Assembly (NCBI GenBank): GCA_005801425.1
Contig: SYDY01000018.1
Coordinates: 1 to 6,740, forward strand
DNA: 6,740 nucleotides
Reading direction: 5' to 3'
Source: Bdellovibrionales bacterium
GTDB taxonomy: Bacteria; Myxococcota; XYA12-FULL-58-9; SYDY01
The first letter of the stretch is position 1. The number at the start of each line of letters is the position of its first letter. Below, in pieces: positions 1-6,603 of the stretch. A program made the translations under genes and the position numbers. The notes below the pieces were generated by a model, which saw only the letters and a list, made by a program, of their open reading frames with translations, did no database searches and was not told where the DNA came from.

Positions 1-2487
1 CCGATGGGCGTGCATACCGGCGATTCGATTACAGTGGCACCCGCACAAACATTGACCGATCGTGAATACCAACGCATGCGTGATGCGGCCATGGCGATTT
101 TGCGCCGTGTGAAAGTGGAAACGGGCGGGTCCAACGTCCAATTTGCCGTCGATCCAAGCAATGGCCGTATGGTGATTGTTGAAATGAATCCACGTGTGTC
201 GCGCTCAAGCGCGCTTGCCTCCAAGGCCACAGGATTTCCGATAGCCAAGATTGCTGCCAAATTGGCGGTGGGTTACACACTAGATGAGATCCCCAACGAC
301 ATCACCAAGATGACGCCGGCGTGCTTTGAGCCTTCCATTGATTATGTGGTCACAAAAATTCCAAAATTTGCGTTTGAAAAATTTCCAGGCGCGGACACGA
401 CTCTTGGCACACAGATGAAGTCTGTGGGCGAAGTGATGGCCATTGGTCGAACGTTTAAAGAATCGTTTTTAAAGGCATTGCGATCTCTTGAAGCACGTGA
501 GCCTGAACGCCCTGATCATTTGCCCGATGAAACGGTATTGCGCGCGCTGTCGCGCCCTTCTGCGGATCGTATTCGTATGGTTTTGCAGGCGCTTGAACGC
601 GGATTTTCGGTGTTGGAAATCTCGGAGCGTACTGGCATCGATCCATGGTTCTTGGATCAGTTTCAACAGATTGCCGATTTACAACGTCAATTGCGTGGAC
701 GAACGCTTGAAAGTATCTCTGCAGAAGAGATGCGTCATGCGAAAGAATACGGCTTCTCTGACCGTCGCTTGGCCCACAGCACAGGCAGCCATGTCGAAGC
801 GGTGCGTTTGCATCGAGAGGCATTGGGGGTTACGCCGGTCTACAAACGCGTGGATACATGCGCGGCTGAATTTGAGTCATTTACACCTTATTTGTATTCG
901 ACCTATGAATCGGAAGATGAAGCCGATGTGTCGTCACGTCGCAAGGTCATGATTTTGGGCTCAGGACCCAATCGTATCGGTCAAGGCATTGAATTTGATT
1001 ATTGCTGCTGCCATGCGGCCTTTGCGCTTGCAGACATGGATGTTGAAAGCATCATGGTCAATTGCAATCCCGAAACGGTATCGACCGATTACGACACAAG
1101 CGATCGCTTGTACTTTGAACCGCTGACCCGTGAAGATGTCTATGAAATTTATAAGCGCGAAAAACCGGATGGCATTATTGTCCAGTTTGGTGGCCAGACT
1201 CCGCTGAATCTCACAGGTCCACTCAATGAAATGGGCGTGAAAATTTTAGGGACGTCACCAGACTCGGTGGATCTCGCTGAAGATCGTGAACGGTTCAATC
1301 AATTGCTTGACCAGTTGGGGATCAAATATCCACAACATGGATTTGCAACAGATGTTGAAGAAGCGCGCGTTTGCGCCGATGCAATTGGTTATCCTGTTCT
1401 TGTACGTCCATCCTATGTGCTGGGTGGTCGTGCCATGGCGATTGTGAATGCGCCTGAAGATTTAGAGCAATACGTGACAGCGGCATTGCATGCGAGTTCA
1501 GAGCGACCCACGATTTTGATCGACAAGTATTTGGAAGATGCATTTGAGTTTGATGCGGATGCGTTGTCCGATGGTGAAAACTGCATCATCGTCGGTATTT
1601 TGCAGCACATCGAGCAAGCAGGCGTTCATAGCGGTGACTCCGCATGTGTTTTGCCTCCGCACAATATTGCACCTAAACATGTAGAAACCATCCGCACGCA
1701 AACACGCGCGCTTGCTCGCGCCCTAGGGGTGGTTGGTCTCATGAACGTGCAATACGCTGTGCATGAAGACGAAGTGTATGTGCTTGAAGTCAATCCACGT
1801 GCGTCGCGTACGGTGCCGTTTATTGCGAAAGCCACGGGTGTTCCGATTGTTAAAATCGCAACGCAATTGATGCTTGGCAAAAAACTTCCGGATCTTGGGT
1901 TCCATGATGATCTTGAAGTCAATGCATGTTTTGTTAAAGCGCCGGTGTTTCCGTTTGTTAAATTTCCAGGCACGGATCCACTTCTTTCGCCTGAAATGAA
2001 GTCGACGGGCGAAGTGATGGGCATGGCCGATTCGATCGGCGAAGCCTATTACAAAGCGCGTCTTGCTGCAGGCATGCGTTTGCCCGATTCAGGCACTGCA
2101 TTTATTACGGTGAACAAACGCGATCATCAAACGGTTGTGCCTATCGCCAAGCGATTGATTGAATTGGGATTTGCCGTGGCTGCAACACGCGGTACGGCGA
2201 AGGCGCTGCGCGATGCGGGCGTGGCTGTGCGCGAAGTGAAAAAACATAGTGAGGGACGGCCCAACTGTGTGGATGATATTCGCAATGATATTTTTCAATT
2301 GATTGTGAATACACCGATGGGTGAATCGGCACGGCGCGATGGGACTTTGATTCGCCAAGCGGCTGTGTCCCATGGGATCCCATTTTTTACAACGCTTGCA
2401 GGTGCGGTTGCGGGTGTCGAAGCTATTGCGGTCTTGCAGCAGCAGGGGGTTTCGGTGAAGTGTTTGCAAGATCTGCATGGGGTGTAG
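1..2487 (+). CDS. carB: Carbamoyl-phosphate synthase large subunit, 5'-truncated by window edge
   Basis: The encoded enzyme makes carbamoyl phosphate from bicarbonate, ATP and ammonia delivered by the small subunit CarA, feeding pyrimidine and arginine synthesis in the cytoplasm. The visible 828 codons align by eye with E. coli CarB from about residue 239 onward, so roughly 239 N-terminal residues lie outside the window. Counting from the Met at base 4, the first ATP-grasp unit keeps its metal ligands Q46, E60 and N62 (E. coli Q285, E299, N301). A helical oligomerisation region follows, with the conserved RVDTCAAEF near its end. The second synthetase half begins near residue 314 ([15 protein letters not shown]), and its ligands are Q583, E595 and N597. 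The last ~130 residues, from about 699, form the MGS-like allosteric domain (ATRGTA, SEGRP, IVNTP). The internal duplication typical of CarB is evident from the repeated EMNPRVSR and EVNPRASR. No frameshift or lost key residue was seen. carA is not in the window. Confidence 0.98.
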
Positions 2488-2566: not shown

Positions 2567-3067
2567 ATGGCCGAAAATTTTACATTTGATGTGTCGTCAT
2601 CGTGTGATTTGCAAGAGGTGGATAACGCCGTCAATCAAGCGAACAAAGAACTGAGCGTTCGTTATGATTTTCGCAACATCACATTTTCCATTGAATGGAA
2701 ACGTGACGAAGACAAAATTCTATTGGCATGTCCGGATCGCACGAAACTCGCAGCCATCATGGAAGTACTTCGCACAAAAATGGCCAAACGTGGTGTGCCG
2801 CTGAAGAATTTGAAAGAAGGTGATGTCGTTGATGCCGGTGGCGGGACGGTTCGTCAGCAACTGGATTTGCAACAAGGGATCCCTGGGGACATTGCGAAAA
2901 AAATTGTGAAGTTTTTGAAAGATCAAAAACTTAAAAAAGTTCAGGCTTCGATCCAAAGCGATCAGGTTCGCGTGGCATCACCCTCAAAAGATTCGTTGCA
3001 AGAAGTAATGACATTACTTCGGCATGAAGATTTTGGAATAGAACTTAATTTCTCTAACTACCGGTAA
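2567..3067 (+). CDS. yajQ: YajQ-family nucleotide-binding protein (UPF0234)
   Basis: A small cytoplasmic protein of 166 residues, close to the E. coli YajQ length of about 163. Recognisable family blocks are TFDVSSSCDLQEVDNA near the N-terminus, ELSVRYDFRN at 28-37, LRTKMAKRGV at 68-77, the long helix QGIPGDIAKKIVKFLKDQKLK at 103-123 (here broken as QGIPGDIAKKIV and KFLKDQKLK), VQASIQSDQVRV at 125-136, and the C-terminal NFSNYR. The family folds as two RNA-binding-like domains. Members in Xanthomonas and Pseudomonas have been reported to bind cyclic-di-GMP and control transcription, and E. coli YajQ binds nucleotides. The precise role here is unknown. The start is supported by GAGGAG 7 bases upstream. 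It lies 79 bases after carB, with two hairpins between, so it may be co-transcribed with carB. The next gene encodes a cyclic-di-GMP phosphodiesterase. Confidence 0.95.
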   Translation: MAENFTFDVSSSCDLQEVDNAVNQANKELSVRYDFRNITFSIEWKRDEDKILLACPDRTKLAAIMEVLRTKMAKRGVPLKNLKEGDVVDAGGGTVRQQLDLQQGIPGDIAKKIVKFLKDQKLKKVQASIQSDQVRVASPSKDSLQEVMTLLRHEDFGIELNFSNYR

Positions 3068-3145: not shown

Positions 3146-3928
3146 ATGAATGACTTTTTTCATCGTTTTGGGCAGCCCGGAGGTTTGTTTCGGGGAAAGG
3201 CCCCAGAAGATCTCTCATCGTGGGCTATTTTTAAGTTGATTGAGTCTGTGCAAGTGAGGTTGGTGTATCAGCCGGTGGTCGATCTCGAAAATGGCACAGT
3301 GTACGCCTTTGAGGCTTTGGCGCGCAGTAATTCGTCACATTATGATTCGCCTGTCGACATGTTTCATGCGGCCTCTAAGGCGGGTTTATCGGGGCGTTTG
3401 GGGCATATGCTGCGTAGGATGGCCGTGGAAGAATGCCCCAATCAGCGTTTGTTCCTCAACGTGAATCCCAATGAATTTGATCACGATTATCTCATGCGGG
3501 GGGATGATCCTGTCTTTTCCCATTTGGCAGAGGTTTTTTTGGAAATTACCGAAACGGTGCCTTTGAGTCATTTTCAGATGTGCCACAGCATTTTGGAAGA
3601 AGTGCGTGGTCGGGGTGTCTCGCTTGCGATCGATGACTTGGGCGCTGGTTTTTCAAATTTGAAATACATCGCTGATTTGGAACCGGAGATTGTAAAATTT
3701 GATCGAAGCTTGATCTCCAATGCTGATCGCTCAGAGCGCCAGCGTCGTTTGATGGGGGCTTTGGTGCATTTGTGCAATGACATGGGTGCACGTGTGGTGG
3801 CCGAAGGCATTGAAACCGAAGGCGAGCTTAAAGCGGTGATCGATTCGGGAGCGCATTATGGTCAAGGTTATTACTTGGCGCGTCCAGCCTATCCACCGCC
3901 TTTGGTGAATTGGCCTGAAGCAAGATAA
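3146..3928 (+). CDS. Stand-alone EAL-domain protein, probable cyclic-di-GMP phosphodiesterase
   Basis: Predicted to hydrolyse cyclic-di-GMP to linear pGpG, lowering the second messenger that promotes sessile growth. The 260 residues hold one EAL domain (about 30-250) and no GGDEF, PAS, REC or membrane segment, so the protein is cytoplasmic and lacks an obvious sensor. All signature positions of active EAL enzymes are visible: FEALAR (E56), FLNVNPN (N107), LEITET (E133, E136), AIDDLGAGFS (D163, D164), VKFDRS (K184), VAEGIET (E220) and GQGYY (Q240). Loop 6 reads DDLGAGFS instead of the common DDFGTGYS, a mild change. The first ~30 residues are unassigned. The gene lies 78 bases after yajQ and appears to have its own -10 element just ahead of the ATG. 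No ribosome binding site is seen. Catalytic activity is inferred from residue conservation only. Confidence 0.93.
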   Translation: MNDFFHRFGQPGGLFRGKAPEDLSSWAIFKLIESVQVRLVYQPVVDLENGTVYAFEALARSNSSHYDSPVDMFHAASKAGLSGRLGHMLRRMAVEECPNQRLFLNVNPNEFDHDYLMRGDDPVFSHLAEVFLEITETVPLSHFQMCHSILEEVRGRGVSLAIDDLGAGFSNLKYIADLEPEIVKFDRSLISNADRSERQRRLMGALVHLCNDMGARVVAEGIETEGELKAVIDSGAHYGQGYYLARPAYPPPLVNWPEAR

Positions 3929-3952: not shown

Positions 3953-3982
3953 TTGCCATGTTGCATGCCATCGTCGTACAAT
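3953..3982 (+). promoter_or_regulatory. Candidate sigma70-type promoter of the amidohydrolase gene
   Basis: The -35 box TTGCCA (3953-3958, 5 of 6 to TTGACA) and the -10 box TACAAT (3977-3982, 5 of 6 to TATAAT) are separated by 18 bases. The -10 ends 8 bases before the ATG at 3991, so transcription would begin at or next to that codon. This argues for translation from 3991 and against the in-frame ATG at 3958, which would lie inside the promoter. Confidence 0.5.
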
Positions 3983-3990
3983 CGTTCATC

Positions 3991-5364
3991 ATGCTGTTAT
4001 CCGCGGATCGTATTATCTACGAAGGTTTTGCATACCCTGACGCAGGCATTGAGATTTCGGACGATGGTCGGATCGTGGCGGTAGCGCCGCTTTCTGCCCT
4101 GGGGACGCCCGATGAGGTGCTGCATGGCAAAGTCATTTTGCCTGGTATGATCAACGCCCATTCTCAGGCATTCCAGCGCATACTTCGTGGACGCACGCAG
4201 TTTGCAAGTCCCAATCAGAAAGACGATTTTTTTCTTTGGCGTGACAGCATGTATCACGTGGCCGGATTGATGGAGCCCGAGTCGTTGTACACCGTAGCGC
4301 GACAGGCATTTTTAGAAATGCTGTTGTCGGGTGTGACCACGGTGGGTGAATTTCATTATATTCATTATCAGCCGGATGGTGAGCCCTACGAAGACTCCAA
4401 CGCCATGGGCTTGGCTTTGATTGAAGCGGCACGCGATGTGGGAATACGTATTTCGCTGTTGCAGGTGGTGTATCTGCACGGTGGTTTTGGCATGGCACTT
4501 AATCCTTGGCAGCGCCGTTTTGCGGATCCGTCGATTGAAGTGGCCAACGATCGTTTTGAGGCATTGGTGCGCAAGTTGCTTGAGTATCGTGATGTGCGAT
4601 TGGCATGGGGCATAGGAGCCCATTCGATGCGGGCGGTCGATTACGATGAAATCATGTCGCTTAAACTTCGTTTGGCGCACATGCCATTTCATCTTCAGGC
4701 GTCCGCCTTTGACGATGAAGTGGACGATTGTTTAGATCGTCATGGCGAACGGCCCGTCGAGCTTTTAGCTCGACGTGAATTGTTTGATGCATGCACAACA
4801 TTGGTTCATGCAACCCAACTGACGGATGCCGAATGCGATTCGATTGCAAAACTCGGTGCCGTGGTGTGCATGTGCCCAAGTGCCGAGGCGGATATGGGGC
4901 ACGGGATTGGTCGTGCGGCCGATTTACTGAAACGTGGGGTATCGGTGGCTTTGGGAACCGACAATCAATTGGGGTCATCGATTTTGGCCGAAGCGCGTAT
5001 GGTGGAATTACATGAGCGTTTGCGATCGCATGAACGCAACCGTTGTGTGGCGGACACCAATACCTCGGTGGCAGCCCATACGCTCAATATGGCGACGCTG
5101 CATGGCGCGCGGTCGCTTGGAATCGAAGCCGGGATATTGCGATCACGCAAATGGGCAGATCTGGCGGTGTACGATTTGACCGATCCACGTCTTGCAGGAC
5201 TCGATGGTTGGTCGCTTTTGCCGGGCCTCATGTTTGGTGATTTGCCTCGTGTGACCGACGTGATGGTGGGTGGAAAATTTGTGGTGCGTGATGGCAAACA
5301 CGAAGGCGCCCAAGGGATCACCGAGAAGTATACGACCTTGGTGCAGTCTATGTATCCTGCGTGA
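3991..5364 (+). CDS. HutF-like amidohydrolase with altered metal-binding site
   Basis: A 457-residue member of the amidohydrolase superfamily, closest by recall to formimidoylglutamate deiminase (HutF), which converts N-formimidoyl-glutamate to N-formylglutamate in histidine breakdown. HutF-like blocks are FLWRDSMYHV (81-90), GEFHYIHY (119-126), GIGAHSMRAV (207-216), DDEVDDC (241-247), LVHAT (271-275) and SAEADMGHGI (297-306). Relative to Pseudomonas HutF, the substrate residues Q62, Y123, H211 and R214 are kept, as are H57, H273 and D324. The second His of the HxH motif is Gln (HSQ, Q59), the strand-5 metal His is Gln (HLQ, Q236) and the expected Glu three residues later is Ala (A239). The fold and reading frame are intact, but deiminase activity is doubtful. 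An in-frame ATG at 3958 would add 11 residues. I prefer 3991 because it matches the family N-terminus and sits just after a good -10 box. No other hut gene is nearby. Confidence 0.88.
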   Translation: MLLSADRIIYEGFAYPDAGIEISDDGRIVAVAPLSALGTPDEVLHGKVILPGMINAHSQAFQRILRGRTQFASPNQKDDFFLWRDSMYHVAGLMEPESLYTVARQAFLEMLLSGVTTVGEFHYIHYQPDGEPYEDSNAMGLALIEAARDVGIRISLLQVVYLHGGFGMALNPWQRRFADPSIEVANDRFEALVRKLLEYRDVRLAWGIGAHSMRAVDYDEIMSLKLRLAHMPFHLQASAFDDEVDDCLDRHGERPVELLARRELFDACTTLVHATQLTDAECDSIAKLGAVVCMCPSAEADMGHGIGRAADLLKRGVSVALGTDNQLGSSILAEARMVELHERLRSHERNRCVADTNTSVAAHTLNMATLHGARSLGIEAGILRSRKWADLAVYDLTDPRLAGLDGWSLLPGLMFGDLPRVTDVMVGGKFVVRDGKHEGAQGITEKYTTLVQSMYPA

Positions 5365-5424: not shown

Positions 5425-6603
5425 ATGATTGAGAGAAATCTTGGCGCGTATTTGCTGCAACGTGTGAAAGAAGCGCCTGTTCTCACGGTTTTAGGTCCGC
5501 GTCAGTCTGGCAAAACCACACTTTTACGTCATTTATTTCCTCAAAAACCCTATGTTTCTTTGGAAGATCCAGAGCATCGCGAGGAGGCTGAAACAGATCC
5601 TCGCGCTTTTTTAGGCCGATTTCCAAGTGGTGGAATTTTGGATGAGATCCAACGTGTGCCCACGTTGCTTTCCTACATTCAGGGCATTGTGGATGCACAT
5701 AAGCAGGCGGGTGAGTTTATTTTAACGGGTTCGCAGCAATTGGGATTGCTTGCGTCGGTGTCACAATCGCTTGCGGGGCGCACGGCGCTGGCCACATTGT
5801 TGCCATGCAGCTTGGATGAACTCAGTCGTTTTTCAGATGCTCCATCGACATCGTTGGATCATGTGATGCTGACGGGAGGCTATCCGCGTATTTTTGATCG
5901 GCATGTGCCGCCGCACGGTTGGTTAAGTGATTACATCGAAACGTATATTGAACGTGATGTACGGCAGATCCAGAATATTGGCGATTTGCGTGCATTTCGT
6001 CGATTTGTGCAGTTGTGTGCGGGGCGTACGGCGCAGGTTCTCAATATGTCGAATCTTGCAGCCGATGCAGGGATCAGCCACAACACAGCCAAAGCGTGGC
6101 TCAGTGCGCTTGAGGCGAGCTTTATCATCTTTTTGTTGCCCGCATTTCATCGCAATTTAAACAAACGTCTTGTGAAGGCGCCTAAGCTGCATTTTGTTGA
6201 TACCGGCATTGTATGTTCTTTGTTGGGCATTGAATCGACGACAGTGCTCAATCGCCATCCGTTGCGCGGTGCAATTTTTGAAACCTGGGTGGTATCGGAA
6301 ATTTACAAGCAGCGTTTGCATGGTGGCAAAAAACCGAACATGTATCACATGCGCGACACGCGGGGCCGCGAAGTGGATTTGTTGATCGAAGATGCAACGA
6401 CACTTACGGCCGTAGAAATGAAATCAGGACAAACCATCGCCCAAGATTTTTTTGCGCAGCTCACTTACCTTGGTGAACTTGCGGCGTCTGATCCACTGAT
6501 TGCATCGTATGTGCCACGCCTAATCTATGGCGGAAATGATTACGTGATGCGTTCGTCTGGTGAAGTGTTGGGTTGGGCGAAAATACATGATTGCGTGTGG
6601 TGA
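5425..6603 (+). CDS. AAA-type ATPase with DUF4143 and nuclease-like C-terminus
   Basis: A 392-residue protein of the widespread ATP-binding family typed by an N-terminal AAA_14-like ATPase and a C-terminal DUF4143 region. The Walker A motif is GPRQSGKTT (24-32), Walker B is GGILDEIQ (69-76, D73 and E74), and ILTGSQQ (99-105) fits sensor 1. ERDVRQI (176-182) and the segment around LAADAGISHNTAKAWLSAL (211-229) look like the DUF4143 helix-turn-helix-like part, followed by HFVDTGI (256-262). The C-terminus has REVDLLIE (315-322) and VEMKSG (330-335), a D...ExK pattern (D318, E331, K333) like PD-(D/E)xK folds. No substrate or pathway is established for the family. It is often found in accessory regions. 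The gene is 60 bases from the amidohydrolase but has its own promoter, so it is probably transcribed separately. No truncation is visible. Confidence 0.93.
   Translation: MIERNLGAYLLQRVKEAPVLTVLGPRQSGKTTLLRHLFPQKPYVSLEDPEHREEAETDPRAFLGRFPSGGILDEIQRVPTLLSYIQGIVDAHKQAGEFILTGSQQLGLLASVSQSLAGRTALATLLPCSLDELSRFSDAPSTSLDHVMLTGGYPRIFDRHVPPHGWLSDYIETYIERDVRQIQNIGDLRAFRRFVQLCAGRTAQVLNMSNLAADAGISHNTAKAWLSALEASFIIFLLPAFHRNLNKRLVKAPKLHFVDTGIVCSLLGIESTTVLNRHPLRGAIFETWVVSEIYKQRLHGGKKPNMYHMRDTRGREVDLLIEDATTLTAVEMKSGQTIAQDFFAQLTYLGELAASDPLIASYVPRLIYGGNDYVMRSSGEVLGWAKIHDCVW

Follow-up and report, generated by a model that had tools for sequence, protein, structure and literature searches.

In the five-step route of histidine degradation HutF acts together with a formylglutamate hydrolase, and in the four-step route an enzyme named HutE hydrolyses formimidoylglutamate straight to glutamate and formamide (PMC12772324). 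In NCBIfam the arginase-family formimidoylglutamase bears the name HutG. HutF of P. aeruginosa (3MDU/4RDV) belongs to the amidohydrolase superfamily, and pseudoenzymes with this fold are already known. Pseudomonas aspartate transcarbamoylase contains an inactive dihydroorotase subunit (pDHO), which is retained because its partner ATCase needs it; in multifunctional CAD-type proteins, the related pDHO domain is without zinc ligands and substrate-binding residues (PMC7053772). The CRMP/DPYSL (dihydropyrimidinase-like) proteins are a non-catalytic re-use of the fold (PMC10153444). The protein described here, an old enzyme that probably lost its chemistry and kept its shape, resembles the Pseudomonas pDHO as an amidohydrolase fold without activity of its own, the inactivity being judged in our case from sequence. 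Whereas pDHO is a member of the dihydroorotase group with an identified partner, this protein descends from HutF, and unlike the CAD-type domain it keeps its pocket residues. The CRMP/DPYSL proteins are eukaryotic, derive from dihydropyrimidinase, and form a large, well-studied family. No HutF-derived pseudoenzyme was found in the literature searched, from which most subscription journals are absent.

The window, 6740 bases long, is one complete contig (C6) among the 121 of a 3.38 Mb genome assembly. Its hutF gene (Table 1) has a second in-frame ATG upstream, at 3958, and the nearest homologue starts at the residue encoded at 3991. The full-length protein passes the cut-offs of two NCBIfam equivalogs, TIGR02022 (418.1 bits vs 413.05) and the formimidoylglutamate deiminase model NF006681 (425.9 bits vs 362), and its best solved relative is P. 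aeruginosa HutF 3MDU (36% identity, full-length homology). In a tree, it groups with the HutFs of G001 and G002, two genomes from its own order (clade support 100/97). By family assignment and tree placement, the gene is a HutF (formimidoylglutamate deiminase) orthologue, inherited vertically. The G001 and G002 orthologues have intact active sites, and so the loss of the site falls on the branch of the genome studied here.

Table 1. Genes of the window and active-site features of its HutF orthologue (family numbering as in 3MDU)
Feature	Position	Strand	Remark
carB, 3' part	1-2487	+	contig C6
yajQ/DUF520 gene	2567-3067	+	contig C6
EAL-domain gene	3146-3928	+	single domain; EAL, DDLGAG and EGIE motifs, apparently complete catalytic set
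HutF orthologue, degraded zinc site	3991..5364	+	intact open frame; 457 aa from ATG 3991
Strand-1 motif H-S-Q (cat-tct-cag, H57-S-Q59)	4159..4167	+	H56 kept, H58Q at 4165-4167
Strand-5 motif H-L-Q (cat-ctt-cag, H234-L-Q236)	4690..4698	+	H232Q at 4696-4698
A239-F240 (gcc ttt)	4705..4710	+	replaces invariant E235 and near-invariant Q236
Strand-6 motif H-A-T-Q	4807..4818	+	H269 kept, H272Q
A-E-A-D-M-G-H	4882..4902	+	T294A, L298M, D300H; family motif T-E-(A/R)-(N/D)-L-G-D
D324	4960..4962	+	family D320; Asp ligand retained
AAA_14/DUF4143 ATPase gene	5425-6603	+	directly downstream of the HutF gene

An earlier note on this DNA had read HxQ motifs on strands 1 and 5 and matched them to the zinc ligands of Pseudomonas HutF. 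Both motifs lie exactly where it placed them, within a single open frame, and an alignment with 3MDU sets Q59 on H58, Q236 on H232, H57 on H56, and D324 on D320, as the note had it. Residues are numbered below as in 3MDU, and conservation was taken from an alignment with 43 HutF-family proteins, which plasmid-borne proteobacterial HutFs extended to 57 other sequences (56 HutFs and a doubtful outlier, L140). The zinc ligands H56, H58, H232, and D320 read H, Q, Q, and D in this protein. Those four ligands are the same in 57/57 of the others, as are E235, H269, and D300. Both Gln positions being His throughout that set, neither chance nor misalignment explains the motifs. The changes go beyond the two already noticed, with E235A, Q236F, H272Q, and D300H also present. 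H56, H206, H269, and D320 are shared with the P. aeruginosa enzyme, as are the conserved pocket residues Q61, R82, Y121, and R209, whose assignment as substrate contacts we assume; H58, H232, E235, Q236, H272, and D300 are replaced here, in a genome that also has a HutG. The alignment was inspected for another His that could serve the metal site, a finding that would have told against the note, and none was found to replace the lost ligands. The sole new His at a conserved site, as placed by the alignment, is H304, which stands where the family has D300. As an enzyme, the aligned protein departs from HutF in both of the defining features tested, the zinc ligand set and Glu235. Because two of the four ligands are missing together with E235, which we take to be the catalytic Glu and general acid/base, ordinary zinc-dependent deimination by this protein is very unlikely.

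At 73 positions the 43 HutFs are at least 97% conserved, and here the protein keeps 62 residues and loses 11 (H58Q, W79F, A204G, H232Q, E235A, Q236F, H272Q, T294A, L298M, D300H, and G382R). By leave-one-out counting in the same set, every other sequence loses at most six and retains its ligands, E235, and H269. Three of six core residues lost, against 62/73 near-invariant residues kept, is the pattern of a pseudoenzyme in an otherwise conserved fold.

The same genome encodes a HutG (G000:C64) that scores 327 bits against the TIGR01227 cut-off of 229 and retains the arginase-family metal-binding motifs (GGGHE, NFDAHFD, and IDLDVL). HutH (642 bits vs 539), HutU (910 vs 375), and HutI (363 vs 298) also exceed their cut-offs, and hutF sits outside any hut operon. 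Since HutG hydrolyses formimidoylglutamate directly, HutF activity would be dispensable in this genome. The order's seven other genomes showed no HutG at an E value of 1e-40 or better, and those arginase-family proteins that were classed in G001 and G002 proved to be arginases. Among 195 genomes of the phylum, eight, including this one, have a HutG above the cut-off. The HutF motif occurs in 0/7 of the other HutG genomes vs 105/187 of those without HutG (Fisher p 0.004, a value that ignores kinship and overstates the evidence, as several of the seven are related). The sole genome with both HutG and the HutF motif is the present one, and its HutF is broken.

Other candidates in the pathway were set aside. 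FTCD was rejected as a bypass, its gene being absent from this genome, and an apparent TGA within hutH is a slightly early C-terminal stop that leaves HutH intact. A PF05013 protein (C90) was rejected as a HutG-type deformylase: NCBIfam does not recognise it as one, and its gene adjoins a carboxylate-amine-ligase-like gene. This pairing of a PF05013 (N-formylglutamate amidohydrolase-like) gene with a carboxylate-amine-ligase-like gene recurs in several genomes of the order (L090; L089, L091, and L088). HutI (G000:C110:337-1542; L003/L077) is 36-39% identical to the HutIs of G001 and G002, which are 57% identical to each other, and hutI does not adjoin hutU here, unlike in those two genomes. 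These comparisons suggest that HutI, too, was replaced; it is not the order's usual orthologue, so the histidine pathway has been remodelled in ways only partly traced.

The simplest alternative to a retained function is an early pseudogene, decaying since HutG made it redundant, with a frame open by chance and a functionless product. We consider this unlikely but worth serious weighing, as the HutG bypass makes HutF unnecessary, some losses lie off the active site (W79F and G382R), and about 40 neutral missense changes would leave a chance of about 0.15 of meeting no stop codon. Simple decay is harder to square with 457 intact codons, with the large majority of near-invariant residues kept, or with a protein that still passes its family cut-offs. 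Moreover, the HutF branch is about 1.2-1.4 times as long as those of its sisters, and the same genome's HutU and HutH give about 1.1-1.6 times; the excess is therefore genome-wide rather than specific to HutF, which favours a retained, fold-constrained pseudoenzyme. All three lost active-site His residues changed to Gln only, an outcome with a likelihood of at most 0.25 for each under random missense change. Losses cluster only marginally on the six core residues (3/6 vs 8/67 elsewhere; p 0.04, or 0.05-0.09 with more sequences). Inactivation could be recent, the relatives compared being of order level, with none closer. A retained non-catalytic function is favoured over decay by about three to one.

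An active hydrolase with altered chemistry is improbable. Such an enzyme would hold a metal on H56, D320, and other residues (Gln or H304), or act on a formimidoylglutamate-like compound without a metal; H56, H206, H269, and D320 are indeed kept, and D300 has become His, but the presumed general acid/base is now Ala, two ligands are gone, and the 195 genomes hold no HxQ relative pointing to an established variant enzyme. Far-fetched, in our judgement, is an artefact, whether from misassembly, a foreign contig or errors of sequencing, even with a contig this short in an assembly of so many pieces. The genome's sole carB is divided between contig C112 (model positions 1-242) and the window (238-1051), the two contig ends overlap exactly by 17 bases within carB, and there is no second copy, all of which places the window in this genome. 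The earlier note had thought a sequencing error unlikely, and that judgement holds up: seven independent codon changes fall at conserved sites in a frame that stays open, in a protein that groups firmly with those of its order-mates.

The reading we prefer, with a probability of about 0.68, is that a vertically inherited hutF is now a pseudoenzyme, bypassed by HutG, whose fold is retained for a non-catalytic job. HutG would convert formimidoylglutamate into glutamate and formamide by a single hydrolytic step; catalysis by HutF would then no longer have been needed, the HutF site would subsequently have lost the metal, and the TIM-barrel protein would have stayed under selection for another task. 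That task would most likely be the binding of formimidoylglutamate or a related dicarboxylate, or a part as structural or regulatory partner. Pocket residues kept while the metal and E235 are lost would be compatible with a ligand-binding protein; a scaffold role would require the fold alone. The note had proposed a non-catalytic protein as one outcome, possibly repurposed for binding. Its degraded, non-catalytic metal site is well supported and gains further basis from the loss of E235 and H272 and from the HutG bypass, whereas repurposing for binding goes no further than being compatible with the conserved polar pocket residues and the non-accelerated branch.

YajQ, which we take to be the c-di-GMP-binding protein it is reported to be, and the EAL protein are encoded near HutF, and these neighbours raise the idea of signalling. 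A metal-free HutF fold might sense formimidoylglutamate, and hence histidine catabolism, possibly acting on the co-directional neighbour of EAL c-di-GMP phosphodiesterase type; we regard this as a long shot. The YajQ-EAL-HutF order was not found in G001, G002, or G003, and being unconserved there it was rejected as a functional unit. The distance from carB to hutF, with hutF downstream, is less than 4 kb in G002 as in this genome, which is not so in six other loci examined, and no conserved gene neighbour hinting at a HutF partner was found in the relatives checked.

Collecting HxQ homologues, as the note had advised, yielded none among the HutF motifs seen in the 195 genomes of the phylum. 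A scan with the pattern H-S-(H/Q)-A-F-Q-R matched in 106 of them; because variant motifs (HSHSFQR in G001, for one) escape it, a rare relative may have gone unseen. All other matches read HSH or HTH, bar one HSQAFQR (G087:C63), which lies within rpoB rather than in an amidohydrolase, in a genome whose own HutF is normal; among these matches an HSQ HutF occurs only here. For HxQ HutFs, wider genome contigs gave only remote or partial matches, viral contigs none, and phages only remote amidohydrolases. A plasmid set held 531 HutF-like records, and the 12 diverse full-length ones that were read are 12/12 HxH.

The locus would provide a case in which a non-homologous enzyme, HutG, replaces a step while the displaced HutF keeps its fold without the metal, and it makes one route to a pseudoenzyme, redundancy first and loss of catalysis second, testable in a bacterium. 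With both curated cut-offs passed, automatic annotation will label the gene formimidoylglutamate deiminase and thereby assign the organism a five-step histidine pathway, which it probably does not run.

Two further observations concern hut genes elsewhere. Klebsiella plasmids (L130 and L134) encode HutF with HutC and HutD, and L134 also an N-formylglutamate deformylase; through these plasmids, hosts described as users of the four-step pathway gain a five-step route that is mobile. In the present genome, a second HutH-like lyase of the MIO family (G000:C43:10754-12286; L081) scores below the HutH cut-off, and its neighbours are acyltransferase-, thioesterase-, and outer-membrane-carrier-like genes, a run that resembles a cluster of the aryl-polyene type.
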